DNA of 63,566 bases from a virus, in IMG/VR virus record IMGVR_UViG_3300033064_001031, positions 1 to 63,566 of that record; one strand, 5' to 3'. Below are positions 5,436 to 61,426 of this stretch, piece by piece. A program made the translations under genes and the position numbers. The first letter of the stretch is position 1. Each line of letters opens with the position of its first letter. Under the pieces are notes generated by a model. The model was not told where the DNA came from. It made no database searches and saw only the letters and a list, made by a program, of their open reading frames with translations.

Positions 5436-6308
5436 TTACCGCGTGACGGTGAGGCGAGCCAGGCCGCGCGGGTTGTACGCGCCCAGGCCGAGGTTCTCAA
5501 AGATCGAGAAGCCGATCATCCGCCGCTTCGGGTCGTCCGCCGAGAGGACCGTCAGCTCGGTGCGGACCGGAATCCGACCGAACATCTCGGGCTCGCAGCA
5601 GAGGTAGACCGTGCCGTTCGGGACCAGGCGCGACGTGACCACGTTGGCCCCGTAGATCACGCCCTGGAGGCCCGTCTTCAGCAGGGTGGCCTGCGACTCG
5701 ATGTCCAGGATGTCGCGGCCGAACTTGCGGATGTCCGCGTAGTCCCGCGCGTTCATGTAGATGCGGGCGACCCGGAGGTCGTGCCGCTCGATGAGCGCGA
5801 AGGCATCGGCCAGCACCGCACCGGAGATCGGGGCGATGACGGGGATGTCGGCGTTGAGCTGACCGGGCAGGGAGTCGAAGCCCGCCGTGGCCACGGAGTC
5901 GAGGACCGCGAAGACACGCTCGTCCTCGGCCGCCTGGATCTGGGCACGGCCCAAGTCCTGCGACCGCTCGATCAGGTCGAAGCGACGCTCCTTGATCTGG
6001 GTGAGGGGGATCTCCGGGTTCGAGGCGATCTCGAACAGGGGGAAGATCACGCGCCGGGGCTTGGTGACGGCCAGGATGTTCTGGCCTTCCTCGCCCACGA
6101 CGTAGGCCGTGACATCCGGGTCCTTGTCGTAGATCGGAAGCGCACCGTCCGGGAGCTGCTCGACCAGGAAGGTCTTGCGGCCCACCGCCGCGTAGTCACG
6201 GCGGGTTCGGAGGGGCTGGGTCATGGAGGCGGCGAGCTTGGCACGACCCTGGGGGGTCTTGATGTACTCGCCGATGATCTTCTGCTTGACAGCGTTGGTG
6301 ACGCTCAT
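5436..6308 (-). CDS. Major capsid protein, HK97-fold type
   Basis: A 290-residue protein with the hallmarks of phage major capsid proteins. An N-terminal arm (residues 1-35) precedes a strand-rich E-loop-like region. A helix-rich spine (about 85-130, with FEIASNPEIPLTQIKERR then DLIERSQDLGRAQIQ) follows. The A-domain is in the middle (about 145-250). The C-terminus, MIGFSIFENLGLGAYNPRG, matches the 'E-nlG...nprg' ending common in this fold. It forms the icosahedral shell. It is last in the order portal, protease, scaffold, capsid, as in T4, and is followed by two strong terminators, as expected for a highly expressed gene. The ATG has GGAAC upstream and a 25-base spacer to the preceding gene. 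I see no LxE-type cleavage site, so the processing point is unknown. Confidence 0.82.
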   Translation of the reverse strand: MSVTNAVKQKIIGEYIKTPQGRAKLAASMTQPLRTRRDYAAVGRKTFLVEQLPDGALPIYDKDPDVTAYVVGEEGQNILAVTKPRRVIFPLFEIASNPEIPLTQIKERRFDLIERSQDLGRAQIQAAEDERVFAVLDSVATAGFDSLPGQLNADIPVIAPISGAVLADAFALIERHDLRVARIYMNARDYADIRKFGRDILDIESQATLLKTGLQGVIYGANVVTSRLVPNGTVYLCCEPEMFGRIPVRTELTVLSADDPKRRMIGFSIFENLGLGAYNPRGLARLTVTR

Positions 6309-7247: not shown

Positions 7248-8828
7248 TCAGGAGAAGCTGCCGCTCACGTCGGGGTCGGACGCCCAGAGGTTGGACAGCT
7301 CCTGGACCTCGTTGCCCTTGACGCTGGCCGTCTTCGGCACGTTGCCCACGGACTTGACGCCCTTGGAAGCCGTGCGCTTCTGCGGCTTGAGCAGGGACGC
7401 CAGGCTGGCCTCCTTGTCGGAGCCCTTGTCCTCGTCGTCGTCCGCATCGTCGTCGTCGGAGCCGAAGACCTCCTGGAAGGCCGCCTTGTCCGCCGCCGTC
7501 AGCGAGGTGCCGTCGCTCAGACCCATGGGGTCGAAGCCGGTGGCGAAGAACTCGGCGTCGCCGGAAGCCTCCTTGTCGGAGCCCTCGTCGTCGTCGCCTT
7601 CGTCGTCGCCCTCGTCGTCGCCCTCATCGTCGCCCTCGTCGTCGCCCTCGTCGTCGCCCTCGTCGTCGTCGTCGTCGGACTTCTTGGCGGCCTTCTTGCC
7701 CCCGACGATCTCGTCGTCGGCGTCCTCGTCGTCATCCGACTTCTTGGCCTTCTTGCCCGCCATCACGTCGCCGCAGCCCATGACCTCATCCTCGGGGGCC
7801 TCGTCGAACTGCATGGCCGAGAGCATCTCCAGCTCATCGTCGTCGAAGTCGGCTTCGTGCCCGAACGCGAGCTTGCCCGCCTCCTTGCCCTCGTCGTCGT
7901 CCTCGTCCTCGTCGTCCGAGGCCTCCTTGTCGGAGCCCTTGTCCTTCTTGGCCTCGCAGTTGTCCCGCATCCCGCCCTCGGGGAGCTTCTCGCAGCCCGC
8001 CTGGACCTCGTGCCGGGCGATGATGCCGTCGCCGTCCGTGTCGAGGCTGGCGAACATGGAGCGGGGGCCGCCCCAGTCCTCGGCGGTCACGAAGCCGTCG
8101 CCGTCGTCGTCGTAGGCGTCGAACATGGCGAGGAAGGGAGCGGAACGGGCCTCCTTGTTGGCGGCCTCCTCTTCCTTCTTCTCCTGGTCCTCGGACTTGC
8201 CCTTGGCACCGAGGGTCTCGCCGTCCGGGTCGTTCTGGTCGGCTGCTGCACGCATGGCGAACAGCTCCTCCTCCATCGCCTTCAGACGGGCCTCCATGGG
8301 GTCCATGCCCATGTCGTCGAGGAGCATGTCTTCCTCGACCGTATCGTCCTCGGGGAACATGCCCATCAGCTCGTCTTCCATGCCGAGGAAGTCGCCGCCG
8401 AGACGCCCGATGCTGGCGTCGAGGGCACCGTCGTCCATCGACATGTAGCCGAAGGCCTGGTCCTCGATGGCGTCCCAGTTCGCCTTCTTGCCGAGGGTCG
8501 CCTTGGCGAGCACCAGAGCCTTGGCGGACTTGCGGCGGACCAGCTCCATGAGGGAGGCATTGCGGCCGACCTGACCCTGGTGGGCCGGGTGGTCCTGGTC
8601 TTCCACGCCGACGCCGGGCAGAGCGGGCGGGCCGCTGTCGCCGTAGGGGCCGGGGTGGACATCCTCAGCGAACTCCGAGGGGCCGCCGATGATGTAGTCG
8701 TCCTTGCCCGGGTCATCCTGGGTGTGGGCGGGGTGGTCCTGATCCTCGACTCCGTAGCCGGGGATCGCGGGGGGGGCAGACGCACCTCGGTCGAGGGCGG
8801 CCCACGTCATGCGCTGACGCTTGCTCAT
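7248..8828 (-). CDS. Acidic EF-hand protein, scaffold candidate
   Basis: A 526-residue, extremely acidic protein between the protease-like and capsid genes, the position of the scaffold (gp22) in T4-like phages. Residues 240-251 and 263-274 are a pair of EF-hand loops; the second (DTDGDGIIARHE) is fully canonical and the first has Asp at position 12. GVEDQDHPAH occurs twice (26-35 and 74-83). GSDKEAS occurs three times (298-304, 416-422, 469-475). Residues about 386-415 are a run of Asp-Asp-Glu-Gly units coded by 12-base repeats. A Met/Leu/Glu-rich helical part (about 90-200) could be the scaffold core. Calcium-dependent assembly is inference, and an internal core protein is an alternative. 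Confidence 0.6.
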   Translation of the reverse strand: MSKRQRMTWAALDRGASAPPAIPGYGVEDQDHPAHTQDDPGKDDYIIGGPSEFAEDVHPGPYGDSGPPALPGVGVEDQDHPAHQGQVGRNASLMELVRRKSAKALVLAKATLGKKANWDAIEDQAFGYMSMDDGALDASIGRLGGDFLGMEDELMGMFPEDDTVEEDMLLDDMGMDPMEARLKAMEEELFAMRAAADQNDPDGETLGAKGKSEDQEKKEEEAANKEARSAPFLAMFDAYDDDGDGFVTAEDWGGPRSMFASLDTDGDGIIARHEVQAGCEKLPEGGMRDNCEAKKDKGSDKEASDDEDEDDDEGKEAGKLAFGHEADFDDDELEMLSAMQFDEAPEDEVMGCGDVMAGKKAKKSDDDEDADDEIVGGKKAAKKSDDDDDEGDDEGDDEGDDEGDDEGDDEGDDDEGSDKEASGDAEFFATGFDPMGLSDGTSLTAADKAAFQEVFGSDDDDADDDEDKGSDKEASLASLLKPQKRTASKGVKSVGNVPKTASVKGNEVQELSNLWASDPDVSGSFS

Positions 8829-10330
8829 CGCTGTTCTCCTTCAGAGGGGCGACTGCCAGGTGTGTGGATGGACCCGCCGCGAGCCTGGCCTCGCGATAGG
8901 ATGAGCTTGCCGAGCCTGAGAAGTACCTTTGCCTCGGCAGAAGTGGGCTTGCGGCCGAGAGCCGCTTGGCAAGCCCGGACGTACTGGTTCAGCGACGAAT
9001 AGCCACTGGTCGAACCGAGCCGCAGAGCAGCCCGGTACAGGGGCACGGGGATTTCCACCCCGTACTCCATGTTCAGCAACGCGACCTTGTTCATCAGGTC
9101 AGCGTCATTTGAAGCGGTACGGCAGAGAATGGAGACGGCTCCACCGTATGCGGCCTTGCGGCCTGCATCGGGAACCATCTCATCCATCATCAGCCGGGAC
9201 TGCTTCACGATACTGTCGTTGGGAGCCGTGGACTCGCCGAGCGAGTCGTCCAGAGCCTCCCCGTCCATGTCCTTCTTGAGCTTCTTACGCACCCGGTCCT
9301 TCAGATGCTTCGCCAGCTCGTCTTCGAGGTCGTCGAAGGGACCAGATGGCTTCTCCGGGGCGGCCGGGGCATCACCCTCACCCTCGCCGTCACCCTCGTC
9401 CTCGTCACCCCACCCGGCCATGAAGGCATCGGGACCGAACGCCATCGAGGCAGCCTTCTGGCGGGTCGCCTTCGACCACTCTGCCGGAGGCTGGGCAAGA
9501 ATCGCGGCGGCTCTCTTTGCCAGTGCCGGAGTCACCTCGATGACGTTCCGAAGGACCGCGCCCGTGAACGCGGGGGTGCCGACCCAGGAGGCCTCGATGA
9601 AGTGGACCCCGCCGGTCGGGTCGATGGACTCGTGCCCACACAGCTCCGCGACCCGGTGCTGACGGCCCTGCTCATCGAAGAAGGTGTTGCCCTTCTCGTA
9701 CTTGATGTGGGGGCACATCTCCGTCTCGTCGGCGGCCCAGTGACCACACTTCGTACAGATCGTGCCATCGACGGTGCAGCCCATCGACAAGGTGCTCATC
9801 TTGCCGGACTCGATGGCAGTCACCAGGTCGGTGTGCTTGCGGTCCGTGGCGATGAGGATGTCCACGTACACCGAGCCGCCCACGTCGCGGGCAACCGCGT
9901 CGATGATGCGGCCCTTGCTCAGCTCCTCGACCTGAACGTGCTCGACGAAGTTGTGCCCGCCGATGAACGTCGCGTAGCTCTTGGCGAGTACCGCCCGGCT
10001 CCAGCAGTCGAGGTTGTTGTTGATGAACTTGTCGGCCCCGAGCTTGACCCGGAAATTGGCGAACTTCCGGTTGACCCTGAAGCCACCCTCCATCACGGAG
10101 CCGGTCTTGACCCCGGATGGCTCATCGACATCCACCGACGCCACGATGGTCGCGTGGGTGAGCAGGTAGTCCTTCGGGTCGAACGACTTGCCGAGGATCT
10201 CGCTGGCCCGGGTGACCAGGTTCTCGCTGACCTCAGCCGTCGCCTTGGCGGCCTGACGTACCTTCGACCAGCCCCGGCCAGAGACCTTGGGCTCCACGAT
10301 GGTCGCCTTGGCGAACTTCATCATGGGCAT
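8825..10330 (-). CDS. Prohead-protease-region protein with zinc-ribbon insert
   Basis: A 501-residue protein. The N-terminal 300 residues resemble the prohead protease/head protein family of large phages. A strand-rich region with VNRKFANFRVKLGADKFINN is followed by a small four-Cys/His insert (CTKCGHW then MCPH, near 192-210). GVHFIEASWVGTPAFTGAVL (about 250-270) is the segment that ends the protease-like domain in relatives. A candidate catalytic His (GGHNFVEHV, near 125) and Ser (KMSTLSMGC, near 182) can be proposed but not proven. The C-terminal 200 residues are acidic then helical and may be a scaffold-like extension. Its position between portal and capsid supports capsid maturation. It overlaps the scaffold start by 4 bases. 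Confidence 0.5.
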   Translation of the reverse strand: MPMMKFAKATIVEPKVSGRGWSKVRQAAKATAEVSENLVTRASEILGKSFDPKDYLLTHATIVASVDVDEPSGVKTGSVMEGGFRVNRKFANFRVKLGADKFINNNLDCWSRAVLAKSYATFIGGHNFVEHVQVEELSKGRIIDAVARDVGGSVYVDILIATDRKHTDLVTAIESGKMSTLSMGCTVDGTICTKCGHWAADETEMCPHIKYEKGNTFFDEQGRQHRVAELCGHESIDPTGGVHFIEASWVGTPAFTGAVLRNVIEVTPALAKRAAAILAQPPAEWSKATRQKAASMAFGPDAFMAGWGDEDEGDGEGEGDAPAAPEKPSGPFDDLEDELAKHLKDRVRKKLKKDMDGEALDDSLGESTAPNDSIVKQSRLMMDEMVPDAGRKAAYGGAVSILCRTASNDADLMNKVALLNMEYGVEIPVPLYRAALRLGSTSGYSSLNQYVRACQAALGRKPTSAEAKVLLRLGKLILSRGQARGGSIHTPGSRPSEGEQR

Positions 10331-11241
10331 CAGGACACCCTGACCTTCTGGCCGTCCAGTTCGACGCTGGCGATGTGGTCAGCCCCATCACCATCGAACC
10401 CGAACGCCTTGCGGTACTCGGAGTCGTCCGGGTCCACGACCACCTCGAAGCTGTGGCCGACGCTGCCGATGTCACCGATGTAGGCCATCATCTGCGACAT
10501 CGAGTCGGCACCGTCACCACGGCGGCTGAACTTCACCGTGAGGGTGGCGGGGGCGTCGTCTGCGGCCTGCTTGACCCGCTGGACCTGCTGGACCTCATCG
10601 AAGCCCTGATCCGTCGTGCCGTCCCACTCGGCCTCGATCCCGGCCTCGTCCACTTCCTCTTCGACGTAGTCCGGGTCACCGAGGATGTCCTGACGCTTGA
10701 TCAGGAACAAGCAGGACGGGCAGCCCAGCAGCCGGTGGCTCTGGCCATCCTGACGCTTGTAGTTGGCGGGACGGAGGTAGTTGGCCTCTTCCCCCTCGCC
10801 GTGGCACTTCTTGGGGCAGGCGTACTTGCCGCCGTCCACTTCGGCCTTGGTCGCCCGGTAGTGGCGATTCTTGCTGGCCCAGTAGAGAGCCGACTTCACG
10901 TAGGCGTGTGCCACCCGGTTGAGAGTCCGAGCAGCCGTCCGAGCATGTGGCCCACCGGGCACCCCGACTGACCCAGCCCCGCCGGGGACAGTCGCGTGCT
11001 CGGCATTCGGCGGGATGATCGAGATGTCGGTCACCCGCTGCACTTCCTCAACCGGGTAGCGCCCGGAACCCCACGGGAAGTCGATGTCCACCTGACCGAT
11101 AGCGGGCCAGACAGCCACCACGCTACCAGCCTGCGACTCGTCGGTCGCACCCCCGGCGAGGGGGTACGCCAAATCACCGACAGAGAACTCTGAAGCCCTC
11201 TGCTGGTAATCGACGTAGACGGTGGCTTGGCGCTCACTCAC
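10330..11241 (-). CDS. Unknown head-module protein with four-Cys zinc motif
   Basis: A 303-residue protein. Residues 1-75 form an SH3-like strand-rich unit (EFSVGDLAYPLAGG, GSVVAVWPAIGQVDIDFPWG). A zinc ribbon follows, made of CPKKC near 137-141 and CPSC near 172-175. The last 70 residues are an alpha/beta unit (ATLTVKFSRRGDGADSM). It overlaps the next gene by one base and is part of the block between the giant protein and the protease-like protein. It is probably a head component or packaged protein, but no family was recognised. Confidence 0.55.
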   Translation of the reverse strand: MSERQATVYVDYQQRASEFSVGDLAYPLAGGATDESQAGSVVAVWPAIGQVDIDFPWGSGRYPVEEVQRVTDISIIPPNAEHATVPGGAGSVGVPGGPHARTAARTLNRVAHAYVKSALYWASKNRHYRATKAEVDGGKYACPKKCHGEGEEANYLRPANYKRQDGQSHRLLGCPSCLFLIKRQDILGDPDYVEEEVDEAGIEAEWDGTTDQGFDEVQQVQRVKQAADDAPATLTVKFSRRGDGADSMSQMMAYIGDIGSVGHSFEVVVDPDDSEYRKAFGFDGDGADHIASVELDGQKVRVS

Positions 11242-11268
11242 GAAGGGAACCTCCCGGTCGTCTGCCGG

Positions 11269-12006
11269 TCAGGCGGACTTGGCGAGTCCGGCGAAGATGT
11301 CGGTCATGCGACCCAGCTTCTCGGCGGCGATGACGGGCACATCACCCGCGAGGTGCGGGAGGACGTGCCCGGCGGCACGGGTAAGCGCGGCAACCCGCTC
11401 CTCGGACTCGCTGCCTTCCAGCACGCGGGTCTGGAACTGGAGCACGTCGAGACCGGCCGAGGCCAGCTTCGTGCCCAGGCCCTTGACGGCCGGGTGCTCG
11501 GACGCGGCCAGCTTGGACGCGGCGTTGTTGATGTCGAGGTACAGGCTCGCCAGCCTCTTGCCGGTCTCCAGCGACGCCTGGATGCCCGCGTGCGGGGTCT
11601 GGCGGTCGGGGGAACCCGTGGGCAGCTCACCGGCCTCCTGCTTCTCACGAAGCTCGCGGTTCTCCTGCTGGGAGAAGTGACCGGCCATGTACGGCTCGTC
11701 GGTCTCCTGCTCCTTGGGGCCGGACTTCTCCTCACCGATGATCTCGGGGTCCTCGCCGATGTGGGCACCCTCGTCGAACACGTCGTCGCCCGTGAGACCC
11801 TGCTTGCGCTGGTCTGCGAGCTTCGCGATGTCCGCACCTGCCGACTTGGCGATGTGGTCGCTCAGGAGGTCGCACTGCATGGCGAACTTCTTGGCGATCT
11901 CCGGCTTGATGCCGAACGCCGCTGCGCCCTTGGTGATGAGGTCCGCTGCCTTGTCCAGGGTGTCGCCCGCGTTGCGAGCTGCCTGCTTCGAGAGCTTGCT
12001 GGCCAT
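11269..12006 (-). CDS. Helical head-module protein
   Basis: A 245-residue protein using the ATG at 12006, which has CGGAG about 10 bases upstream; the frame is open 17 codons further but without a ribosome site. It is almost entirely helical, with a Lys/Ala-rich N-terminus (ASKLSKQAARNAGDTLDKAADL), an acidic middle and an Ala/Leu-rich C-terminus. Its place between the portal/giant genes and the protease matches the small core proteins (gp67/gp68) of T4-like phages. That equivalence is by position only. Confidence 0.5.
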   Translation of the reverse strand: MASKLSKQAARNAGDTLDKAADLITKGAAAFGIKPEIAKKFAMQCDLLSDHIAKSAGADIAKLADQRKQGLTGDDVFDEGAHIGEDPEIIGEEKSGPKEQETDEPYMAGHFSQQENRELREKQEAGELPTGSPDRQTPHAGIQASLETGKRLASLYLDINNAASKLAASEHPAVKGLGTKLASAGLDVLQFQTRVLEGSESEERVAALTRAAGHVLPHLAGDVPVIAAEKLGRMTDIFAGLAKSA

Positions 12007-12083
12007 GATTTCTGTACTCCGGTGTCCGTTTCGGGGGGTGGACAGCACAGGGCGCACGATGGCCCTCGCTAATACCTTCCCGG

Positions 12084-12098
12084 TATAGGGGAACTATC
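12084..12098 (-). promoter_or_regulatory. Late-promoter-like element, copy A
   Basis: Minus strand GATAGTTCCCCTATA, in the 115-base gap between the giant gene stop and the 12006 start. A T7 run with a short AACC/GGTT stem just before it (12100-12121) may end the giant transcript. Confidence 0.55.
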
Positions 12099-12121
12099 AA
12101 AAAAACCTGCTCGGACGGTTT

Positions 12122-15100
12122 CTAAGCCGCCGCTCCCTCTCCTGTGTCCCCGAGAACCGCTTTCTCCAGCACGGCAAACTCTTCGGGGGTCATTTTCTGG
12201 ATTCTTTTCTTCTCGTCAGGGTCCGTCACATTCTCGATCCAGGCCTGGACGCGCTCTGCAAAGGGCTTCTCTGGCCGGATGGTCTTGTCGTCCAGCAGCT
12301 TGATGTCGCCACCGTTGTTGATGGCCCGGACGACGGCTACGGAGATGTCCTGCGGGTCGGGCTCGACATCGGAATCGTCCAGGACCTTCCCCGCCCCGGC
12401 GATCTGGGCTCGAACCAACATGTCCTCACCATCGAGGAGACAGGCAGCGACATCCTCACCGGATGCCATGCAGTCGGCCATGAACGAATTGATGGCGGGC
12501 GTCACCTCGTCTGCGATCACCGCGTCGGCCTTCTCGCGAGCAGCCTTGATGGCGTCGGCCTGCGTCTTGGGGTCGGCCTTGGTGTCCGTGATGGCCGCAG
12601 CCACCCCCTGCACCGTGGTCATGCTGTTGACGGCCATGTCGCGCATCATCGACCGCAGGAACTCCTGCACGTCGGGGGCAAGGGTTCGCTTGCCCTCCTT
12701 CAGGGACCTGCCGAGGGCTTCCCACGGTGTCCCCTCGGACATCTCGATGAGCATGTCGTCGTCCATGGTGCCCATCGCGTCACGGACAGCCGCACGACCC
12801 TCTGCCTGGTAGACCTTGGTGCTGTCGTCCATGAACAGGATGCCCGCGTTGCCCTGCTGGACCATGTGCCGGAGCAGCACCTCCCCCTTCGGGCTGAGAG
12901 GCTTCCGCAGGAGGTCACCGTTCGACCCCTGCACGTTGAACGTCTCCTCGTTCATGATGAACGCGGCCTGGATGCCGTCGATGATGGAGTTCAGCTCGGC
13001 AGCCTGTGGGCTCTCCGGGTCCAGCTCTGCGAGCTGCTCGACGGCCAGTTGCGCGGCCTTGGCCCGCTGCTCTGGGGACGCCCGCCGGAACTGCTTCATC
13101 GAGGCCAGTGCGCGATCCTTGCGGGCGTCACTGTCCAGGGGCTCCGACGACAAGGGCTTACCGCCGACCATGCTGGGGTTGAGCAGGACCGCATCGTTCA
13201 CCTTGGCCTGCACGATGGCCGCCGCGACCGCCATCGTGTCGCTGGTGTCCAGACCCTTGAACGGGTCCTTGGCCCCCTCCCGCATCATCTCGTTGGTGAT
13301 GCCGTGCTCAAGCAACTGCTCACGCATGGCCTTCAAGTCATCGGTGTACGCCGTGAACAGCTCTGGGTCCTTGGCCATCCCCTTCAGGAGAGCGGCTTCG
13401 GCCTTGGGCAGCTTGAGGTCGCCCAGGAGCTTTGCCACCTCCCCCTGGAACTGCTTCTGCTCGCTCTTGGGCTTCGCCGCAGGGGCCTCCGGGGACTTCT
13501 CATCCTCCGGTGGCTCATCCTCCGGTGGCTCGTCCTCTGGGGCCTCGTCCTCTGGAGCGGCATCGTCCGTGGGAGCCTCATCCTCTGGGGCTGCATCCGG
13601 GGCCTCCTCGTCGAGGGACTTCCCCTTGGCGTAGGCGTTGGCCTTCTCCTCGGCACCTTCCCCGTCCCCGAAGGGGTGCATGACCCCATCCGGGTTGATG
13701 GCCATCCACTTGCCGTCCTCCGTCTTCCACGGTGGTCCGCCCGGCTTGTGCTCCGGCTCTTCCTTCTTGGGCGGGGCCTTGAGCTTCGGGGGTGACGGTG
13801 GCTTCGGGGTCGGGGGCTTGTAGTGCTTGCGCTGGTCCTTCGGCTTCTTTGCCATCAGCACACGGACGTACCGCTCGGCCACCCGGCGAGCTGGTCCCGA
13901 TGCTGCGATCTTCTTGTAGTTGAGGCTCAAGTCCTTCTGGCCGTCTGACCCCATGCCCTCCATGTCGCCGTCATCGACGTTCATGCGGTCCCGGCGTAGG
14001 TCGTTGCGCGGGGGCTTCTTGCTGGGGTTCCGACGCTGGAGCCGCTCGACCTCGGCCTCCTCCTTCTGCCCATCGGTCTTCGTGGCCCGGTGGAGGTTCT
14101 TCGTGGGCATCTTCCACTGGTTGCGGAGCCCACCGATCCCTGCCCGCTCGTTCTGCACGCGAGACGGCTTCATGGAATCGACCGCCATGCTGAACCACTG
14201 GTTGTTCAACCGGAAGACGTAGCCCAGGGCACCACCACCCACGGAATCCGCTGGGTCCTTGTGGTCCGGGGGAACCTCGGACTGGCCCCAGTCGAAGACC
14301 GCGATGGCCTCGTCGGCTCGCTCGATGAACTTCTTGAGAGCACCCCGGAACGTCGCCCGGCGGGTCATCCATGCAGCAGCCCGGTAGAGCTTCGCTTTCG
14401 CCTGGAGCTGGCTCGACAACCCGATCTTGCCGTCATCAGCCTCGGAGAGGTAGCCCGCTGCCTGAAGCTCCGTCACGGCATCGGGGGCCACCGTGTAGCC
14501 TCGCCAGGTGAACGTGCCGTCCTTGGCGACCAGGATGTGCTCAGCCCCCCCAGCGGCCCGGTTCATGTCGTTGATGAGCGCCCACTCGTAGCTGGTCAGG
14601 CTGGAGATCAACCCGTCGAAGCCTTCCAGGGCGATCTGAGGGGCATCGCCTTCGTAGCCCTTCTCGTTCGGCCAGGCGTTGTTGATGTGGATGATGGCCG
14701 TGCGACTCATGCCCCGGCACTCGGGACACAGATCCGATGTCTCGACCTTGGGGCCACGACACCTGCACTGCGACACCTCCCCACAGCCGGGGCAGGTGTT
14801 GATGTAGGACTGATGGGCGACCCTCTCGCCAGCCAGCCGTCGCATGTCGGCCTGGGACGCCTGCTTCTGCCCGCACTGGTCGCAGAAGGGGTGGTCCACC
14901 GGGATGTCCTCGCCGCATCGGCCACATGGCTTCGTCGGCTTCGTCCCCTTGTAGTAGAGCACCACCCAGAAGGGCTTTCGCGGGGCCGTGGACCTCATCC
15001 CAAGGTCTGACCCGACGCCGTGGTAGCTGAGCTTGCCACCCCGCCAGTTCCAGTCGTGCAGCTCGTCTTCGACCGTGACGTTGAGCTTGTTCTTGTACGG

Positions 15101-18100
15101 GGACTTGGGCGTGCCGCCACCGAGCCACAGGTACAGCCGGTCAGGCTTCTCAGCCACCGGGATGCCATTGGAGCGACCACCCGGCAGCTTGAGGGGCACC
15201 CATCGCTCCAGGGCCGCCCCCTGCTTCGCCAGGTTCTCCTTGACCGTGCCGTCCCGCAGGTAGTTGTCCTCGATGCCCGGCACGAGGTACTGGCTCCGCA
15301 GAGTGGCTGCCTCGTGGCCCACCTCTTCGGCGGCCTCCGCGACGGCCTGCTCGAACTCCTTCTTGAGCTTCGTCTTCCGCTCCTTGTCGTCGGAGGGGAG
15401 TTTCCCGCCCTTGCCCCGGATGGCCTTCAACCGGGTCTGGACCTCGCGGTTGGCGTGGAGCCCCCGGATGTCCTTCGCCGTGATGCCATGGGGCTTCAGG
15501 TACTCGTTGACGGCTCCGGCATCGACCCTGCCGCCCTCGTAGGAGAACAGGGTGTCGCCCTTGCCCTTGTCCTTGACGGCCTCCTTGAGGGCAGACACCA
15601 GACCCGAGTCGGTGGTGGTCTTCTTCTGGCTGACGCCGGACTTGCCGACGTAGGTGATGGTCGCCTTGCCACCGCTGAACGTGACGTGCTCAGGCGTCCA
15701 GCCGGTCACGCCGACATGCCCATCCTTGGCGGACTCGTCGTTGCCGACCCGCTCGTAGGTGTCGTTCATCAGGCCCACGGCCAGGGCACTCAACCTGGTC
15801 TTGTCGTCCTTCGACTTGAGATCCTTCGTGACCGCCGACTGGAGCTTGTGGAGGCTGCCCCGGAGCTTCTCGACCTTCTTGGCCTTCTCCCGGTTCCGGT
15901 GCTGGATCTGCCCCTCGCTGTACTCGTAGACGGTGGTGGTCCCGGTGCCCTCGGCCTTGGGGACCTCCTTCTTGCCCTTGAACTTCGCGGCCGTCTTCGG
16001 GGGGTGTCCCGTCCGCATCATGGCATCCACCCACGCGACTACCTCTGGGTCCATGCTGCTCAAGGCCAGGATACGAGCGGACACCAGCTCTGCGAACCAC
16101 TCCAAGGAGTTCTCCTTGGAGTAGGCAGTCGGGAACCATGTCGTCAGGTGGTTCTCGTACCTCGCCTCGGGGGTCTTCGTCTGTTCGACAACGGCCTCGT
16201 TGTACGCCTCGTGTGCCTCCGTCTCCCACTTCTTCAATGCCGGGATGCCCTCGGCCAGCTTTGGACCCACCTGCTCCGGCCTCACCAGGTAACGGTCCGC
16301 ATGAACCACATTGAAGCTGGTCCCGAGGATGCCGAGCTGCTCCTCCTCTGGCGTCGGGGCATCGAAAGCCACCACGATCTTCGTGTTACGCCCCCGGCCC
16401 TTCTTCTCACGAACCACGACCCCCCGCTCGAACTCCGGCCCCTTCCACGGTCGGTGCTTGATGGTGAACCGCTGCCCCTTGCGGAACATCTTGGCGACGT
16501 TCCCCCACAACTTCCCGATCTTGTCCAGGGCCACCTGGGCCTGGGCCACCCCATCTTGTGGGGCTATGCCAGGCTCCAGAGTCGCCGCACGGGAGGCCGT
16601 GGCATACATCTCAGCGATGCTCCGATTACGGAACCCTCCGGGGACCTGGTGGGCGTGGACGTAATGGGCCAGCTCGTGGACGAACGTGGCGAACTCCGCC
16701 TTCGTGTCGAACGCCGAGGGCACCAACTGGATGAACCCACCATTCATAGGCGAGTAGATGGACCGCCGAGACCCGAAAGGTCGAGCTGCCATCAGCACCG
16801 GGATGTTGTCAGGTAGCCGGTACTTCGCTCGTGAATAGGCCGATTCCGTCCGCTTGAGGCCGTCGAGCACGACCGGCACCATGTCCGCGTACCGGGGCAG
16901 ATACCAGACGATGAAACGACCCTGCTTGATGGACTTCTGCCCCTTTGACCCAGGGGCAGCCCTCGCCGCCACCCGCACCTGGTCGGCCACGAACCGCATC
17001 GCCACCCGATCGAGGATCGCTCCCCAGATCTCCTCCTGCGGGTCAGGACCATCGAACCCACGGGGCAGAGCTGCTGTGCTCCGACCGTAGACCGGAACCT
17101 CCTGGAGCCCGGCCTGCTTCGATGCCTTGTCCTTCGCGGCCTGGTCCTTGTCGTAGCGGACCTTGAAGACCTTGACCTCCTTCTTGACCCCGCCCCCCGT
17201 GTCGCCCTTGGGCGTCTTGCGGACGATGACCGTGGGGTCGCCCTTGTCGTTCTCCCCGAAGCTCTCGATGCGACCAGGGCTGTTGAGGTACTTGCCCATC
17301 AGCAGCGGGTCACCGACATCCAGATCGAACTTCTTGGCGGCCTTGTCCTTCATCTGCATCCGAAGGAACTCGGTGTACTCCCCCGCGACCTTGCCGCCCT
17401 TGAGGTCGTCCCAAACGCGCTGTGTCAGCCGCCGGGAGTCCGTGGAGAGGGCAGGGTCGGACAGCAGGTGGCGGCGGGCGTACTCGCCCACCTGGCGGAC
17501 CTGCGGCCCCTGGAGGTTGAACTCCGTCATCAGCCTCCGGGTGTCCATCGACTTGCCCGGCTGCCGGAGCACCGCGACGTACTGATGTGCAGCGTCGCTG
17601 GAGAGCCCAACCGTGATCTCCCGCACGCGGGCGAGCTGGTAGGCGTCGAGGAAGCTCAGGCTCTTGCCGCTGGGGAGCCCCATGTCCATCAGGTCGAAGA
17701 TGAACTCGACCTTGGCCTCGCGGTCAGCCCAGTTGCCGAGGGCGTCCCGGAACGACTTGTCCTTCTGGGCGATCTCCTTGATCACATCCAGGAGGCCGAG
17801 CTTCTCCATCTCGATCAATGCCTTCTTGCCGGTGGGCTCCCGGAGGAAGGTGTTGATGAGCATGTTGCTCAGGTGGCCCGCCGGGATGTTCTTGATCTTC
17901 GCCTTGTTCTTGGTGATGGACCGACCGACTTCGGGGCTGATCTTGAAGCCGTACTTCACCAGGAACTTGATGGCCCTGATCATCCGGCTCGGGTCGTCGG
18001 TGAACGTCTTGTCCGGGCTGGAAGGGCACCGCATCACCCCCTCCTGGAGGTCACGCAGACCGCAGCCAGTCAGGTCGAGGATCTCGGCCTTGTCCGGCCC

Positions 18101-18577
18101 CTGTGCCAGGTCGTGCAGCCGCCAGAGCAGGGTGTTGAACGTGAACTCCCGGCGTCCCACGTCCTGCTCGATGGTGGACTTCTCCACGGACTCGGGGGTG
18201 TAGCCGCCCTGCCCGTAGCTCTCCGTCCGGGCGTTGGCGATCTCGATGTCCTCACCCTTGAGGTTCGCCTCACCGAGCATCCAGTCGCCGACGATGTGCA
18301 GCAGGGCGACGCCGTACTGGTTCGTGGCGATGTTGGTCCGGGTCGGGATGGCCTTGGCGACCTCCTTGGCGAACCAGTCGGAGTCCTTGCCGTTCAAGGC
18401 CACCGAGTCGATGACGATGTCCACATCCTTCACAGGCTGCTTGATGATGAAGTTGCGGACGGCCCCGCCCACGACGTAGACGTGCCTGCTGACCCCGAGC
18501 CGCTTGGACAGGTCAGACAGGAACTTCATCAGGGCCAGGGATGCCTGATTGTCCATCGCTGTGAGGGCTACGGTCAC
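12122..18577 (-). CDS. Giant polyvalent protein: nucleotidyltransferase, metallopeptidase, topoisomerase IB, zinc ribbons
   Basis: A 2151-residue fusion. (1) Residues 25-270 are a class II CCA/poly(A)-polymerase head: VVGGAVRNF at 35-43, catalytic Asp51 and Asp53, GRREFTFNTL at 141-150, DDPSRMIRAIKF at 194-205. (2) About 530-850 is a zincin-type metallopeptidase: HELAH at 634-638 and SLEWFAEL near 826 as the likely third ligand. (3) About 905-1130 is a topoisomerase IB catalytic domain with Arg943, Lys979, Arg1038, His1088 and Tyr1097; the spacings 36/59/50/9 match poxvirus enzymes. (4) Two zinc ribbons lie at about 1218-1240 and 1262-1300. (5) A Pro/Glu/Asp repeat linker lies near 1650-1690, then about 430 mostly helical residues. 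It lies between portal and protease, so packaging in the head or delivery with DNA is likely. This architecture fits the 'polyvalent protein' concept of Iyer, Burroughs and Aravind. Confidence 0.8.
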   Translation of the reverse strand: MTVALTAMDNQASLALMKFLSDLSKRLGVSRHVYVVGGAVRNFIIKQPVKDVDIVIDSVALNGKDSDWFAKEVAKAIPTRTNIATNQYGVALLHIVGDWMLGEANLKGEDIEIANARTESYGQGGYTPESVEKSTIEQDVGRREFTFNTLLWRLHDLAQGPDKAEILDLTGCGLRDLQEGVMRCPSSPDKTFTDDPSRMIRAIKFLVKYGFKISPEVGRSITKNKAKIKNIPAGHLSNMLINTFLREPTGKKALIEMEKLGLLDVIKEIAQKDKSFRDALGNWADREAKVEFIFDLMDMGLPSGKSLSFLDAYQLARVREITVGLSSDAAHQYVAVLRQPGKSMDTRRLMTEFNLQGPQVRQVGEYARRHLLSDPALSTDSRRLTQRVWDDLKGGKVAGEYTEFLRMQMKDKAAKKFDLDVGDPLLMGKYLNSPGRIESFGENDKGDPTVIVRKTPKGDTGGGVKKEVKVFKVRYDKDQAAKDKASKQAGLQEVPVYGRSTAALPRGFDGPDPQEEIWGAILDRVAMRFVADQVRVAARAAPGSKGQKSIKQGRFIVWYLPRYADMVPVVLDGLKRTESAYSRAKYRLPDNIPVLMAARPFGSRRSIYSPMNGGFIQLVPSAFDTKAEFATFVHELAHYVHAHQVPGGFRNRSIAEMYATASRAATLEPGIAPQDGVAQAQVALDKIGKLWGNVAKMFRKGQRFTIKHRPWKGPEFERGVVVREKKGRGRNTKIVVAFDAPTPEEEQLGILGTSFNVVHADRYLVRPEQVGPKLAEGIPALKKWETEAHEAYNEAVVEQTKTPEARYENHLTTWFPTAYSKENSLEWFAELVSARILALSSMDPEVVAWVDAMMRTGHPPKTAAKFKGKKEVPKAEGTGTTTVYEYSEGQIQHRNREKAKKVEKLRGSLHKLQSAVTKDLKSKDDKTRLSALAVGLMNDTYERVGNDESAKDGHVGVTGWTPEHVTFSGGKATITYVGKSGVSQKKTTTDSGLVSALKEAVKDKGKGDTLFSYEGGRVDAGAVNEYLKPHGITAKDIRGLHANREVQTRLKAIRGKGGKLPSDDKERKTKLKKEFEQAVAEAAEEVGHEAATLRSQYLVPGIEDNYLRDGTVKENLAKQGAALERWVPLKLPGGRSNGIPVAEKPDRLYLWLGGGTPKSPYKNKLNVTVEDELHDWNWRGGKLSYHGVGSDLGMRSTAPRKPFWVVLYYKGTKPTKPCGRCGEDIPVDHPFCDQCGQKQASQADMRRLAGERVAHQSYINTCPGCGEVSQCRCRGPKVETSDLCPECRGMSRTAIIHINNAWPNEKGYEGDAPQIALEGFDGLISSLTSYEWALINDMNRAAGGAEHILVAKDGTFTWRGYTVAPDAVTELQAAGYLSEADDGKIGLSSQLQAKAKLYRAAAWMTRRATFRGALKKFIERADEAIAVFDWGQSEVPPDHKDPADSVGGGALGYVFRLNNQWFSMAVDSMKPSRVQNERAGIGGLRNQWKMPTKNLHRATKTDGQKEEAEVERLQRRNPSKKPPRNDLRRDRMNVDDGDMEGMGSDGQKDLSLNYKKIAASGPARRVAERYVRVLMAKKPKDQRKHYKPPTPKPPSPPKLKAPPKKEEPEHKPGGPPWKTEDGKWMAINPDGVMHPFGDGEGAEEKANAYAKGKSLDEEAPDAAPEDEAPTDDAAPEDEAPEDEPPEDEPPEDEKSPEAPAAKPKSEQKQFQGEVAKLLGDLKLPKAEAALLKGMAKDPELFTAYTDDLKAMREQLLEHGITNEMMREGAKDPFKGLDTSDTMAVAAAIVQAKVNDAVLLNPSMVGGKPLSSEPLDSDARKDRALASMKQFRRASPEQRAKAAQLAVEQLAELDPESPQAAELNSIIDGIQAAFIMNEETFNVQGSNGDLLRKPLSPKGEVLLRHMVQQGNAGILFMDDSTKVYQAEGRAAVRDAMGTMDDDMLIEMSEGTPWEALGRSLKEGKRTLAPDVQEFLRSMMRDMAVNSMTTVQGVAAAITDTKADPKTQADAIKAAREKADAVIADEVTPAINSFMADCMASGEDVAACLLDGEDMLVRAQIAGAGKVLDDSDVEPDPQDISVAVVRAINNGGDIKLLDDKTIRPEKPFAERVQAWIENVTDPDEKKRIQKMTPEEFAVLEKAVLGDTGEGAAA

Positions 18578-18614
18578 CAGCCAGTCGCTCCTACGTCCTC
18601 TGATGGGGACGGCT

Positions 18615-18629
18615 CATAGGCAAACGACC
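18615..18629 (-). promoter_or_regulatory. Late-promoter-like element, copy H
   Basis: Minus strand GGTCGTTTGCCTATG, between the portal stop (18632) and the ATG of the giant gene (18577), 38 bases upstream of it. It differs from the consensus in one TAG base. Confidence 0.45.
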
Positions 18630-18631
18630 GT

Positions 18632-20329
18632 CTACCCGAACCGGCCCTCGCCCTCTTCCTTCGGCTTCTTGTACGTGAGCCCCAGGTACTCAGCGGTCTT
18701 CTCTGTGAAGTCGGAGTTCTCAGCCAGGGCGTCACCGACGCGGGAGTAGAGGCCCCGGAGGATCTCGTTGAACGTGGCGTCCAGGACGGTGCCCTGGTCG
18801 GCAAGCAGCTTCTCCCGGATGGTCACCGGGTCGAGGTTGAGGTGCTCGTAGATGGTGTCTACGTCCAGCGAGCCCTTCTGGTACAGGTTGAACAGGGCGT
18901 CGTAGGTCTCCGTGTTGTCCCGGAAGCTGAGTCGCGTGAACGACAGCTTCGGCACGATGACCTGGAGGACACCATCCTCATCCTCCTCAACGAACCCCAT
19001 CCGGGCGCACATGGGCCGGAGGAACTGGTCCTCCACCAGGTCTTGCAGCATCTCCCGGTTGAGCATGAACCGGGTGTTGATCACCTCCAGGTTGATGCGG
19101 TCGCCGGAGTAGCTGGACTCGCCGGACAGCAAGCTCTCGGTCACACCGAGGCCCGCGTACATCTGGCGGTCGGTGAAGTCGAACACCCACGACCAGTCGG
19201 GGAGCCGCTGGTCCGCCCCCATCTCCTCCCAGGTGACCTGGAAGTTCGTGATGATGGAGAAGTCCGGGTCCTGAAGGGCGAGGTCAACCTGCTCGCGGAG
19301 GTCTTCGGTCTGCTCCGCGTTCATGTCCTCTGCGTAGATCAACCTGCACGGCGTCATGTGCCGCGAGGCGATGGAGGTCATGCTCTGCCGGACCTTGTCC
19401 CGGAAGATCAGGGTCCGCAGGCACCGACCGAGGATGCTCTTGCCACGGGGCTCATACTGGCTCTTCTTGCGGGCCAAGTAGTGATAGAAGCTGCCGCCGG
19501 AGGCATCGGTGCTCAGGGGGATGTTCTGCCCCTGAGCGATGGCCTCCACCACGTCCTGCGGCATCGAGTTGACGACCCGCTGTGCATGGGGGTCGCCGGA
19601 CTTCGCCCGGTTGATGACCGCCTTCGTCTTCGCGTCAGGGATCAGCTCGACTAGCTTCTCATCCGTGAACGGGAAGCTCTCCATGTGGATCTGCTCGGGC
19701 GGCAGGCAGCGGATAGCTGTCCAGCCCTTGTAGTTCCGCTTCAGCCACTTGACGGAACGCTCCTTGGCGTCCGGGCGCTTCTCCTTGCGCTCGATGATCT
19801 GCCCATCTGCCGTGACCTCGCGGACGATCTCGAACTCGATGTCCTCCGGCATGTCCTCCGAGGTGTCCTCGCAGAACAGGTGGACCTCCCCTAGCAGGTT
19901 CCACTCGTGGTTGACCTCCATGAGCCGCGACAGCAGCTTGACCCGGCCAGCCCACCCCTCGCAGAACCGGAGGGACGCAGCAGCCAGCTTCTCGTTCTTC
20001 GCCTTGGGCTTGCGGAGCCGGACCTTCGACAGGGGCAGCTCGTCCAGCAGGTCGATGGCCTGACCCACGAAGGGGTCGTGGTCGTAGAAGAAACGGTAGA
20101 AGTTGCGCTTCTCGTCGTCGCTCTGTGGCAGCTCCAGGAAGTCGGTGGACAGCTCTGGCGAGTAGAAGTTGCCGCCCGCCCCCATCATGGAGCCGCCGGA
20201 CGCCGGGAACGCGACCTTCGACCTCATCGCCGAGGTGATGATCTTGCCTGGCTTCCCCACCGTCACACCCTTGCGGTCCGCGATCTTGCGGACGACGGTG
20301 GTGTCGTCTGGGTCATTCGTTCTAGCCAT
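18632..20329 (-). CDS. Portal protein
   Basis: A 565-residue protein forming the dodecameric ring at the unique capsid vertex through which DNA is packaged and ejected. It lies downstream of the terminase in the packaging order and has the size and layout of T4 gp20/SPP1-type portals. The N-terminal region has RNFYRFFYDHDPFVGQAIDL. A wing region follows. The stem/crown region has SWVFDFTDRQMYAGLGVTES and GDRINLEVINTRFMLNREML, the segments usually conserved in large-phage portals. The C-terminus is helical and Lys/Glu-rich. It ends in TAG. It overlaps the preceding gene by 8 bases. Confidence 0.82.
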   Translation of the reverse strand: MARTNDPDDTTVVRKIADRKGVTVGKPGKIITSAMRSKVAFPASGGSMMGAGGNFYSPELSTDFLELPQSDDEKRNFYRFFYDHDPFVGQAIDLLDELPLSKVRLRKPKAKNEKLAAASLRFCEGWAGRVKLLSRLMEVNHEWNLLGEVHLFCEDTSEDMPEDIEFEIVREVTADGQIIERKEKRPDAKERSVKWLKRNYKGWTAIRCLPPEQIHMESFPFTDEKLVELIPDAKTKAVINRAKSGDPHAQRVVNSMPQDVVEAIAQGQNIPLSTDASGGSFYHYLARKKSQYEPRGKSILGRCLRTLIFRDKVRQSMTSIASRHMTPCRLIYAEDMNAEQTEDLREQVDLALQDPDFSIITNFQVTWEEMGADQRLPDWSWVFDFTDRQMYAGLGVTESLLSGESSYSGDRINLEVINTRFMLNREMLQDLVEDQFLRPMCARMGFVEEDEDGVLQVIVPKLSFTRLSFRDNTETYDALFNLYQKGSLDVDTIYEHLNLDPVTIREKLLADQGTVLDATFNEILRGLYSRVGDALAENSDFTEKTAEYLGLTYKKPKEEGEGRFG

Positions 20330-20792
20330 CGGTCACCCCGTAGTTCGGTACTGCCACCTGCTGCGGGGGCTCGAAGGGAAGGACAGGCTTCGCATCATCA
20401 TCGCTCTCTGCACCGGTCATGGACTCAAGGAAGCCAAGCACCTGTCGAAGCCTGTCCTGGTACTCCTGACCACGACGGGAAGGTCTGCGGACACCCCCGG
20501 CTCGCTCCCGGCTCTCCAGCCACGAGCACAAGGCCCGTGCCTCATTCCTCAAGTCAACCTGCGCCTCATCGGATGTGAGGTGGCCGATCTCGCCGAGCAT
20601 CTGAAGGGCCTTGGCCAGCCGTTGCTGCTGTGCGTGAAACTGGTCGGCGTCATCGGAGGTCTTCTGACGCCTCCGGGTCGCACGGGCACACACGTCCATC
20701 CCCGCCCGCACCGCGCTGCTGGCACGGCCTAGGTGGGTATGCAGCTCTCGGTCAACAGCAGACCGGGCGAACGTGGCTCGAATGCGACCCAT
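20322..20792 (-). CDS. Hypothetical helical protein upstream of portal
   Basis: A 156-residue, Arg- and Gln-rich, helical protein with no recognised family. The core (about 50-115) has a coiled-coil-like pattern (QQQRLAKALQMLGEI, SWLESRERAGG). The C-terminal 30 residues are Pro-rich and acidic. Its stop overlaps the portal start by 8 bases, so the two are likely translationally coupled. It may assist head assembly, but this is from position only. Confidence 0.55.
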   Translation of the reverse strand: MGRIRATFARSAVDRELHTHLGRASSAVRAGMDVCARATRRRQKTSDDADQFHAQQQRLAKALQMLGEIGHLTSDEAQVDLRNEARALCSWLESRERAGGVRRPSRRGQEYQDRLRQVLGFLESMTGAESDDDAKPVLPFEPPQQVAVPNYGVTDG

Positions 20793-21050: not shown

Positions 21051-22925
21051 TCATCTCCCCCCACGGCCACGGTTCTGACCCCGGTTGATGCTGGATACTT
21101 GACGGTCAGGACTGGACCCACCGAGCCGGGATCGACGCCGGGCCTTGACCGCGACCTTCGCCAGGTCGGTGGGGGAAGGGCCTTTGCCGTTGCGGCTGCG
21201 GTTCATCGAGCCCGCGATGTACTTCCGCTTGCCCATGTGCTGAGTCGCCTCCCACACCATGCGAACGAGGGCGTCGGAGTAGTCATCGAACTTGTCCGGG
21301 GTGTTCGGGGCCTCGACGGTGATGAGGTACTTGCTGTGGGTCTCAGCCTGAAGCTCCATCAGCTCCGCGATGTGGGGTGAGTACATCTCGCCCTGCACGT
21401 CCACGGTCTTCGGGAAGTCGAAGAGCACCAGGTTCTTCTCGTACATGAGCGTCTTGAAGTTGGCGAACACCTGACTCGTCAGGGGCTTCGTGAAGAACAC
21501 GGATTTGCACTGGGTCAGGCCCTTGTTATGCAGCGCAGCCTCGAAGGGCATCCCGGCCCACTGGTCGAACAGCCCGGACGAAATGTAGAACCGCCTCGAC
21601 AGGGCGTAGAGCCAGCCAGTGATCTCATCGAACGACAGCCGCTCCAGGTGCTCGTACTCGCCCTCGCCTGCCCGGATGCGCTCGATGCAGTCGAGGATGA
21701 TGTTGCCCGTGTCGTCGATGTGGCCGATAGCGACCGCGCAGTAGTCACCGTCGATGAGCCCCGCCGAGATGTCGATGCCCATGAAGTGCGGGGCTCTGAC
21801 GGGGGCCTTGACAGCCGGGCGTAGCCCGGAGTCCACGCAGGCCAGCAGGGCAGCAGGGTTCAACCAGCCCTTGGTGCGGTCGGTGAACTCCGCCCCGTAC
21901 TCCGTGAAGAAGCTGTCCGGGTCGGTGACGTACTCCTCTGCGAGGAACTCTGCCTCCACCGTGGGGTTCACCTCCCACGTCGGAGCCTGGATGCAGAGCA
22001 TGTTCCGGGACTCCAGCCCTGCCCTCCAACCCTGCCGGAACTTGCGGTAGAAGAACCCCTGCTTGCCGAGGGGACTGGAGATCGAGAGGATGCGTCCTTC
22101 GACCTTGCCGATGGTGATGCGGCGGTCGATCTGGTCCTTCGGGGAGAAGGCAGCCAGCGACGGCTTGACGGCTCTGTAGATCTTCAGGGCGTCCGACTGG
22201 CCCACGTCGTTGAAGTGAGCCAGCTCGTCCAGGATGATGACGATGTTGCCCGCTCCACGGAGTCCCTTGGCGACGCAGGACTTGAACGAGACCTTGATGG
22301 TCGCCTTTGCCGTGGGGTCGTCCACGTAGCGACCGAACCGCTTGATGTCCTCCGGCGACTGGAACTTCGCGTAGGACATCGTGTTGTTGGCGGTGTAGGG
22401 CTTGTAGAACGCGCAGTCCGCGAAGTGCCCCGACGCCTCGTTGTAGAGCAGCCCGGCCTGGTCCTTGTCCGTGGCGACCGAGATGAGCTGGATGACGTTG
22501 GCCTTGGGGATGCCGTAGTAGGACTGCGGGTTGTCCTTGAGGATCAGCTTGTAGACCTCATAGGCGACCACGCAGGCGCACAGGAAGGTCTTGCCTGACC
22601 GACGACCGATGGAGAGCACCAGCTCCCGCCGCTGGACGCCCGGGATGACCTCCTTGATGTTCGACCGACCCTCTGCGTAGAGCTTGTGGAGGTACTCGAC
22701 CTCCGTGAGCTTCTGCGGGTTCTCCCGCCGCCAGTCGGTGATGACGACATCGCGCACCGTGTCGTCGAGGGCGATGCCGTAGTGGGCCTTGAGGATGACG
22801 CGCTGGACGGGGAACAGCGAGATATTGAGCCCCCAGGAGGACTCGATGAACTCGATGATGTCTACAGCCGTCCGAGTGGTCTTGTCCTGCCTCCCGGCTT
22901 CGAGGGCAATCGCCTGGAGGCTCAT
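21051..22925 (-). CDS. terL: Terminase large subunit
   Basis: The packaging motor and headful/cos nuclease. The 624-residue protein has a Walker A at 107-113 (GRRSGKT), Walker B at about 228-234 (IVIILDE with catalytic Glu), the coupling motif SISSP near 281-285, and an RNase-H-like nuclease domain starting at HFMGIDISAG with Asp385 and later acidic residues (DGDYCAVAIG). It acts with the portal on the prohead. The gene is 10 bases after the gene proposed as small subunit and precedes the portal block. The C-terminal 35 residues are basic (Arg/Gly-rich), which may bind DNA. Confidence 0.93.
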   Translation of the reverse strand: MSLQAIALEAGRQDKTTRTAVDIIEFIESSWGLNISLFPVQRVILKAHYGIALDDTVRDVVITDWRRENPQKLTEVEYLHKLYAEGRSNIKEVIPGVQRRELVLSIGRRSGKTFLCACVVAYEVYKLILKDNPQSYYGIPKANVIQLISVATDKDQAGLLYNEASGHFADCAFYKPYTANNTMSYAKFQSPEDIKRFGRYVDDPTAKATIKVSFKSCVAKGLRGAGNIVIILDELAHFNDVGQSDALKIYRAVKPSLAAFSPKDQIDRRITIGKVEGRILSISSPLGKQGFFYRKFRQGWRAGLESRNMLCIQAPTWEVNPTVEAEFLAEEYVTDPDSFFTEYGAEFTDRTKGWLNPAALLACVDSGLRPAVKAPVRAPHFMGIDISAGLIDGDYCAVAIGHIDDTGNIILDCIERIRAGEGEYEHLERLSFDEITGWLYALSRRFYISSGLFDQWAGMPFEAALHNKGLTQCKSVFFTKPLTSQVFANFKTLMYEKNLVLFDFPKTVDVQGEMYSPHIAELMELQAETHSKYLITVEAPNTPDKFDDYSDALVRMVWEATQHMGKRKYIAGSMNRSRNGKGPSPTDLAKVAVKARRRSRLGGSSPDRQVSSINRGQNRGRGGR

Positions 22926-27136: not shown

Positions 27137-27151
27137 TATAGGCTGGCTAGC
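27137..27151 (-). promoter_or_regulatory. Late-promoter-like element, copy D
   Basis: Minus strand GCTAGCCAGCCTATA, overlapping the TAG stop of the 27147-27998 gene and lying 36 bases before the 27101 start. It fits the seven-copy consensus. Confidence 0.5.
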
Positions 27152-27998: not shown

Positions 27999-28000
27999 GG

Positions 28001-32256: not shown

Positions 32257-32291
32257 GGGCATGAGCCCCCTATGCTCTACCTGCCCGGCGG

Positions 32292-61312: not shown

Positions 61313-61366
61313 GGTGTTCCTCACGCAGGTCCCCGAAGGATGCCAGCTTCTCTGCTTGCCACCGCC

Positions 61367-61381
61367 TATAGAGGGATAACC
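61367..61381 (-). promoter_or_regulatory. Late-promoter-like element, copy E
   Basis: Minus strand GGTTATCCCTCTATA, 55 bases before the sigma-like gene's ATG. It has TTAT where others have TTAG or CTAG. Confidence 0.4.
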
Positions 61382-61426
61382 GCCGGAGGAGTAGGCCCAG
61401 CGAGCCATCAAAAAAGAGGGGGCTCA

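Follow-up and report, generated by a model that had tools for sequence, protein, structure and literature searches.

A topoisomerase IB-containing polyvalent protein in the head gene module of uncultured huge phages and its probable role as particle cargo

Why a tailed phage should keep a giant multi-enzyme protein among its head genes is the question raised by one locus of the IMG/VR virus record IMGVR_UViG_3300033064_001031, which was analysed here as a single window of 63,566 bases. On the minus strand at 12122..18577, an open reading frame (ORF) of 2151 residues starts with GTG and stops at 12122. An earlier note on this DNA had given the coordinates and length correctly while omitting the strand, and all residues it named were found at their positions when checked in the translation. 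An ATG at codon 8 is a possible alternative start, and a Shine-Dalgarno-like AGGAG lies 10 nt 5' of the GTG. Three unrelated catalytic domains share this ORF, namely a topoisomerase IB (TopIB), a nucleotidyltransferase (NTase), and a zincin-like peptidase; it lies in a packaging and head context between the portal and head protease genes, and its orthologues have variable, mosaic architectures. By architecture and context it fits the polyvalent-protein kind. We consider it probable that this is a head-anchored polyvalent protein of uncultured huge tailed phages by which topoisomerase and tRNA-repair activities are brought into the cell; the identity and anatomy of the ORF are well supported, and its packaging into the virion and its function are what we infer.

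Residues 861-1120 (15218..15997, minus strand) form a TopIB catalytic domain without a separate N-terminal clamp domain. Pfam Topoisom_I matched residues 892-1092 at 3.6e-25, and a profile of the module matched the solved enzymes of D. radiodurans (2f4q, 1.5e-19) and variola virus (2h7f, 3.1e-15) as well as a third solved DNA topoisomerase I (6z01, 2.6e-19). The residues R943, K979, R1038, H1088, and Y1097 aligned with R130, K167, R223, H265, and Y274 of the variola enzyme and were invariant across 66 of 66 aligned relatives. The Arg/Lys/Arg/His(Asn)/Tyr pentad of TopIB therefore appears complete by alignment to 2h7f and 2f4q, and the pentad that the earlier note had read from this ORF is borne out, with a common site indicated by the alignment to solved structures.

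The first 400 residues (17378..18577, minus strand) comprise a class II tRNA nucleotidyltransferase/poly(A) polymerase (PAP) head with an RNA-binding part. Matches were obtained to Pfam PolyA_pol (PF01743, 2.4e-16 at residues 33-183), to the tRNA nucleotidyltransferase family PHROG 2244 (3.6e-28), and in the PDB, where the closest solved structure was E. coli PAP (5.6e-17), with several CCA enzymes close behind. The motif set of class II CCA-adding enzymes and poly(A) polymerases (GG...DxD, RRxFTxN, and (D/E)DxxR) was found, with GG at 37-38, DxD at 51-53, RR at 142-143, and DDPxR at 194-198. G37, G38, D51, D53, R142, R143, D195, and R198 were invariant in 15/15 relatives, and GG, DxD, RRxF(T/S)xN, and DDPxR recurred in 15/15 sequences, barring single conservative exchanges; a CCA/poly(A)-polymerase-like head with intact key residues, as proposed earlier, is thus confirmed. 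The tblastn matches of the N-terminus in plasmids and phages were ordinary CCA/PAP enzymes and were rejected. The NTase head is followed by a small module, m412 (residues 405-456, 17210..17365, minus strand), that recurs in more than 20 loci, either fused or as ORFs of ~90-140 residues.

In four related phages, an intein was observed at an identical point of the NTase (L005:5117-13534, L019:4010-12430, L046:4137-8243, and L082:5002-8883). It interrupts the catalytic motif at RREFTFN|T, with Cys as its first residue, HN as its last, and Thr following, and carries LAGLIDADG parts where these were scanned. Separately, a 1342-residue ORF near a topoisomerase gene (L010:12652-16680) showed intein-splicing stretches at three places, along with several matches to LAGLIDADG.

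The zincin-like metallopeptidase occupies residues 545-860 (15998..16945, minus strand), with HELAH at 634-638 (16664-16678) and E826 (16100-16102) as the presumed third zinc ligand. This segment had no Pfam match, and a scan of viral contigs with the zincin alone found no relatives. H634, E635, H638, and the downstream E826 were invariant in 13 homologous sequences from other loci, which gives the zincin pattern of HExxH plus a downstream Glu on a second helix. In the topoisomerase ORFs, HExxH occurred 26 times versus 3.25 in shuffled sequences, an eightfold excess. The AlphaFold model (m083a3a345b40) had a mean pLDDT of 57.9, with a core of about 80, and its weak Foldseek matches included BlaR1, 4l7a, Certhrax, and other zinc peptidases. 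Sequence conservation thus supports a real zincin family with homologues in other loci. The HELAH peptidase with its downstream Glu, as the earlier note had described it, stands as conserved residues, and the common site is given by conservation, not by geometry.

Profile searches uncovered a large family of huge-phage loci. Scanning viral contigs with the whole protein returned only one overlapping contig, and with the topoisomerase segment alone 7 contigs; a profile built from those 7 sequences matched 102 contigs, of which 80 were kept. The family came into view only with the topoisomerase and anchor profiles. Profiles were iterated at an E value of 1e-3, which may admit a few false module calls; module absence is unreliable in truncated loci, and locus counts are approximate to a few, with duplicates removed by a hand-made list. 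In all, 63 non-redundant topoisomerase loci were collected, all of them metagenomic. Many of the contigs measure 200-620 kb, and the phages are therefore huge phages. Two contigs of metagenome-assembled genomes with a topoisomerase relative were found among 84,980 species genomes. The topoisomerase ORFs ranged from 272 residues (solo) to 2834 residues.

Head linkage was seen in 46 of the 63 topoisomerase loci, in the order terL > portal > topoisomerase > ... > protease > major head protein; among these the topoisomerase gene follows the portal gene in 30 and precedes the protease gene in 44. The slot between portal and head protease holds a variable enzyme set with TopIB and a 61-residue block as its constant elements. 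Partner modules were counted over 47 head-linked loci including the window, or 46 without it. A 2H phosphoesterase was present in 22/47 and a CCA/PAP nucleotidyltransferase in 20/47, followed by the 46-residue module m412 (21), an HExxH peptidase (14), GNAT (9), HAD_SAK_1 (4), PAP2 (4), and the InPase of polyvalent proteins (4); RNA ligase, ART-PolyVal, PRTase, and carboxypeptidase occurred once each. The paired HxT motifs were retained in 23/23 2H domains examined. The idea that the topoisomerase is always head-linked was rejected, with 17/63 loci lacking head genes nearby.

The largest member (L048:6929-15433, 2834 residues) fuses DUF5661, a polyvalent InPase, a carboxypeptidase-like M99/AstE domain, TopIB, an RNA ligase, zinc ribbons, and the anchor. 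In a third arrangement (L165, L169, and L219), a topoisomerase ORF of 476-485 residues lies on the opposite strand beside a short anchor-block protein. The homologue of another head gene, g10330, has about 160-300 residues in most loci and 1001-1419 residues in L158, L165, L169, L170, L188, and L219, where it may have gained fused domains too.

The 61-residue block, m1440 (residues 1498-1558, 13904..14086, minus strand; consensus ATKTxxEKEDEExERLVRPxPKKKPPRxDLRRxR...DKDLSxNYKxVA), is the constant, portal-linked head part of the protein. It was present in 46/46 head-linked topoisomerase loci, and in 12/15 phages with the topoisomerase elsewhere it occurred once per record, with a portal gene nearby in nearly all. 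In phages that have the topoisomerase elsewhere or as a small gene between terL and portal, the block usually begins at residues 3-5 of a separate ORF, which as a rule comes straight after the portal gene. A scan with the block alone gave 67 distinct loci, of which 47 had a portal gene and 53 a head protease gene within the fetched stretches, some of them incomplete, and 30 had a topoisomerase in the same ORF. Since the block is elsewhere the N-terminus of a separate post-portal protein, it marks a head-module protein to whose N-terminus the enzymes were joined. The C-terminal third of the polyvalent protein (the block with or without the C-terminal domain, Ct) corresponds to a separate gene in other members, and in the lineage of the window TopIB and further enzymes were joined in frame ahead of this head protein.

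The history of the fusions can be followed on the topoisomerase tree, which largely separates 'away', solo (between terL and portal), and fused enzymes, with 7 changes versus 23.8 for shuffled labels. Partners switched repeatedly, with at least 10 changes for the nucleotidyltransferase, 12 for 2H, and 8 for HExxH, counts that are somewhat inflated by loci cut at contig or flank ends. Some phages encode the modules in separate neighbouring ORFs and others in a single ORF, and the order is largely retained. These separate ORFs in relatives are what would be expected if the fusions were neutral read-through products of neighbouring late-operon genes without a shared destination. That account is very improbable in our judgement, as the anchor block is present in every head-linked locus, the catalytic residues are invariant, the module order is conserved, and the modules have switched several times between being fused and unfused.

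In the proposed role, which shares with the earlier note the suggestion of packaging and early action, the head part would guide the fusion protein into the prohead or onto it, and the fused enzymes would be carried as particle cargo and reach the next cell together with the DNA. The topoisomerase may then relax the incoming genome while it is first transcribed and replicated. The nucleotidyltransferase may restore tRNA 3' ends in the infected cell. The 2H, HAD_SAK, and RNA ligase domains of relatives could heal and rejoin RNA that host anticodon nucleases or tail-cutting nucleases have cleaved, and the zincin may cleave a host protein or set the modules free of each other. Precedents exist for the single steps. 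In T4 Alt, the T4 internal proteins, and the SPN3US head proteins, prohead targeting depends on N-terminal propeptides (PMC7411985), and topoisomerase I and poly(A) polymerase are among the enzymes carried by the vaccinia virion (PMC1540416); the model proposed for polyvalent proteins is a further precedent (PMC5512222). In jumbo-phage RNA repair, 2H opens cyclic ends, the HAD Swiss-army-knife enzyme takes off phosphates, a ligase seals, and a CCA enzyme rebuilds tails (PMC7824862). Several observations weigh against the proposed role. Head linkage of the topoisomerase is not obligatory, and no known motif for capsid targeting or protease cleavage turned up. The RNA-repair set (2H, HAD_SAK, RNA ligase, and NTase) is spread over the whole family, and the window has no complete repair chain, with the NTase alone of this set. 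Judged from its matches, CCA addition is indistinguishable from poly(A) addition, and because the best solved relatives are E. coli PAP plus several CCA enzymes, the product may be either a CCA or an A tail. Neither the zincin model (Foldseek, none below 1e-3) nor the Ct model had a significant match to known folds. Of 50,697 deposited phage records, only the 485-kb LR745208, a metagenomic genome, holds a close relative, and no phage of the family is cultured.

The same location can also be read as serving the producing cell, where a portal-linked topoisomerase would clear torsion and tangles from the concatemer during packaging and the RNA enzymes would sustain late translation. Such a packaging role of the topoisomerase is the main rival to relaxation of entering DNA. 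It agrees with the position beside terminase and portal, where some solo topoisomerase genes lie between the two, and with the topoisomerases outside the head module, which must act intracellularly. But it leaves unexplained why a head protein should be joined to, or share its slot with, tRNA/RNA-repair enzymes, GNAT, ART, and pyrophosphatase, and topoisomerase-free anchor proteins are found at the equivalent place; overall, we regard a producing-cell role as unlikely. Slightly less credence is given to an injected attack protein, in which 2H would degrade RNA or signals, the NTase would block host tRNA ends, the zincin would cut host proteins, and the topoisomerase would nick or relax host DNA. 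For polyvalent 2H domains, Iyer et al. prefer a function as an RNase or on nucleotide signals, and they consider that polyvalent zincins may be effectors (PMC5512222); MenT toxins are tRNA nucleotidyltransferases (PMC11541572). However, the NTase is of the CCA/PAP class with all catalytic motifs rather than of the minimal Pol-beta type, and the HAD_SAK and RNA ligase partners suit repair better. Because the recurrent partners are RNA-end repair enzymes, tRNA repair is a better first guess than host attack, and delivery of topoisomerase and tRNA-repair activity by the particle is the role that we favour.

The remaining segments of the ORF have less defined identities. Residues 1215-1292 (14702..14935, minus strand) form a paired CxxC zinc-ribbon-like segment that recurs in five loci. 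Four CxxC motifs are at residues 1218, 1232, 1262, and 1284, in agreement with the paired zinc ribbons of the earlier note, and the Pfam double zinc ribbon match (DZR, 0.032) fell below the cut-off. A linker of low complexity, rich in Pro, Glu, and Asp (residues 1570-1700, 13478..13870, minus strand), leads to the all-helical Ct (residues 1700-2151, 12125..13480, minus strand), which is found in 27/46 head-linked loci and was modelled with a pLDDT of 87.9 and a pTM of 0.80. Assignments of Ct to designed helical, BAR, or armadillo-type folds were rejected as generic, with TM below 0.3. The 61-residue block and Ct had no Pfam or PHROG match, and a comparison of the unfused anchor proteins with PHROGs gave no family.

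A short peptide, R[VIL]AxR[YWHF], was found 113 times in 1107 ORFs versus 3.1 times in shuffled and 7 times in reversed sequences, at N-termini, C-termini, and module borders, and was carried by only 22 sequence clusters. It is frequent in some phages of the family, with 15 copies in one record of 133 kb, and scarce in others. The polyvalent ORF has it at residues 524-529 and at 1565-1570 (RVAERY, 13868..13885, minus strand), and the other ORFs of the window that carry it are 26436-27101, 27147-28256, 31945-32262, and 60266-61411. As it also occurs in functionally unassigned proteins far from head genes and in so few clusters, it was rejected as a proven encapsidation tag. One ORF (L125:12183-12845) with a weak polynucleotide kinase match (0.0033) ends in RIASRW and is a possible RNA-repair enzyme with an R[VI]AxR[YW] peptide.

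Four head and packaging genes near the ORF likewise lie on the minus strand. The portal protein (18632..20329; PHROG 16240, 9.2e-28) is directly upstream of the polyvalent ORF, the terminase large subunit TerL is at 21051..22925 (PHROG 2, 1e-20), the head maturation protease-like protein is downstream at 8825..10330 (PHROG 18299, 2.8e-12), and the major head protein is at 5436..6308 (PHROG 2522, 2.8e-48). The PHROGs matches of the portal and protease neighbours bear out the site that the earlier note had given. Its claim of a late-promoter-like element belonging to the ORF found no support, as a scan limited to sigma-70-type promoters returned no sigma-70-like site in 11000-20500. Between the head protease and the major head protein, a 526-residue protein (7248-8828) has EF-hand-like calcium loops (Pfam EF-hand_6, 5.1e-9) and is kept at the equivalent position in most relatives.

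If particle delivery is true, RNA repair and DNA relaxation would arrive with the particle instead of being made after infection, and the time at which tRNA-targeting defences can act on these phages would change. The 61-residue block would then be a portable sequence marker for huge-phage head cargo in metagenomes, in a family to which over 100 contigs were matched. A more general proposal, which we hold only tentatively, is a loading system in an uncultured huge-phage clade, in which enzymes are fused onto a 61-residue-anchored head protein, perhaps with R[VI]AxR[YW] peptides at module borders, and a topoisomerase and tRNA-repair kit is injected with the genome. Such a system could shield early translation from immune systems that cut tRNA, CCA-tail-removing nucleases among them. 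A 2026 paper described the cutting of tRNA CCA tails by the CRISPR nuclease Cas12a3 and stated that viruses would have to resist it by other means that are as yet unknown (PMC12851939). A particle-delivered CCA enzyme is a candidate for this resistance as a hypothesis only, and would offer a testable answer to how phages survive tRNA-tail cutting.

Compared with known systems, the family is closest in kind to the phage polyvalent proteins of Iyer, Burroughs, Anand, de Souza, and Aravind (2017, PMC5512222), with which it shares large size, unrelated enzyme domains in one chain, mosaicism, recurrent zincin, 2H, GNAT, ART, and InPase modules, and a portal/terminase context. It differs in its TopIB core and CCA/PAP-type nucleotidyltransferase, and in carrying an RNA-repair set where those proteins carry methylase-helicase or ArdC. 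In the text of PMC5512222, 'topoisomerase' appears solely in one reference title, and Pol-beta NTase is listed for conjugative elements only. The earlier statement that no described member combining nucleotidyltransferase, peptidase, and TopIB was known holds in that TopIB and the CCA/PAP NTase are not among the phage polyvalent domains of that paper, but the protein is not a singleton and belongs to a large family. No paper describing this TopIB/anchor fusion family of huge phages was found within the open-licence literature. The polyvalent kind is extended here by TopIB, a CCA/PAP-type nucleotidyltransferase, an RNA-repair theme, and a new anchor.

The catalytic domain and pentad are common to the phage topoisomerases, the variola/vaccinia enzymes, and the D. 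radiodurans enzyme. At the fourth pentad position the phage enzymes have His as in poxviruses, whereas D. radiodurans has Asn, and unlike the poxvirus enzyme they are fused to other enzymes and lack a poxvirus-type N-terminal part. Solo topoisomerase I genes of the jumbo phages Motura, RSL1, Lu11, and PaBG show that TopIB occurs in large phages too, with no fusion or head linkage reported (PMC7824862); for the PaBG enzyme, the identity is only about 31% and spans roughly half of the domain. With T4 Alt, the internal proteins, and the SPN3US head proteins, the comparison is one of delivery: a targeting peptide leads those proteins to the prohead (PMC7411985), whereas the proposed anchor of the huge phages lies internal or C-terminal to the enzymes, unlike the N-terminal propeptides, with no sequence relation seen or sought. 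Finally, the enzyme classes and chemical logic are shared with the jumbo-phage RNA repair enzymes (2H, HAD Swiss-army-knife, RNA ligase, and CCA enzyme), which are phage genes of RNA repair systems (PMC7824862), whereas those of the huge-phage family are fused to a head protein or lie beside it.

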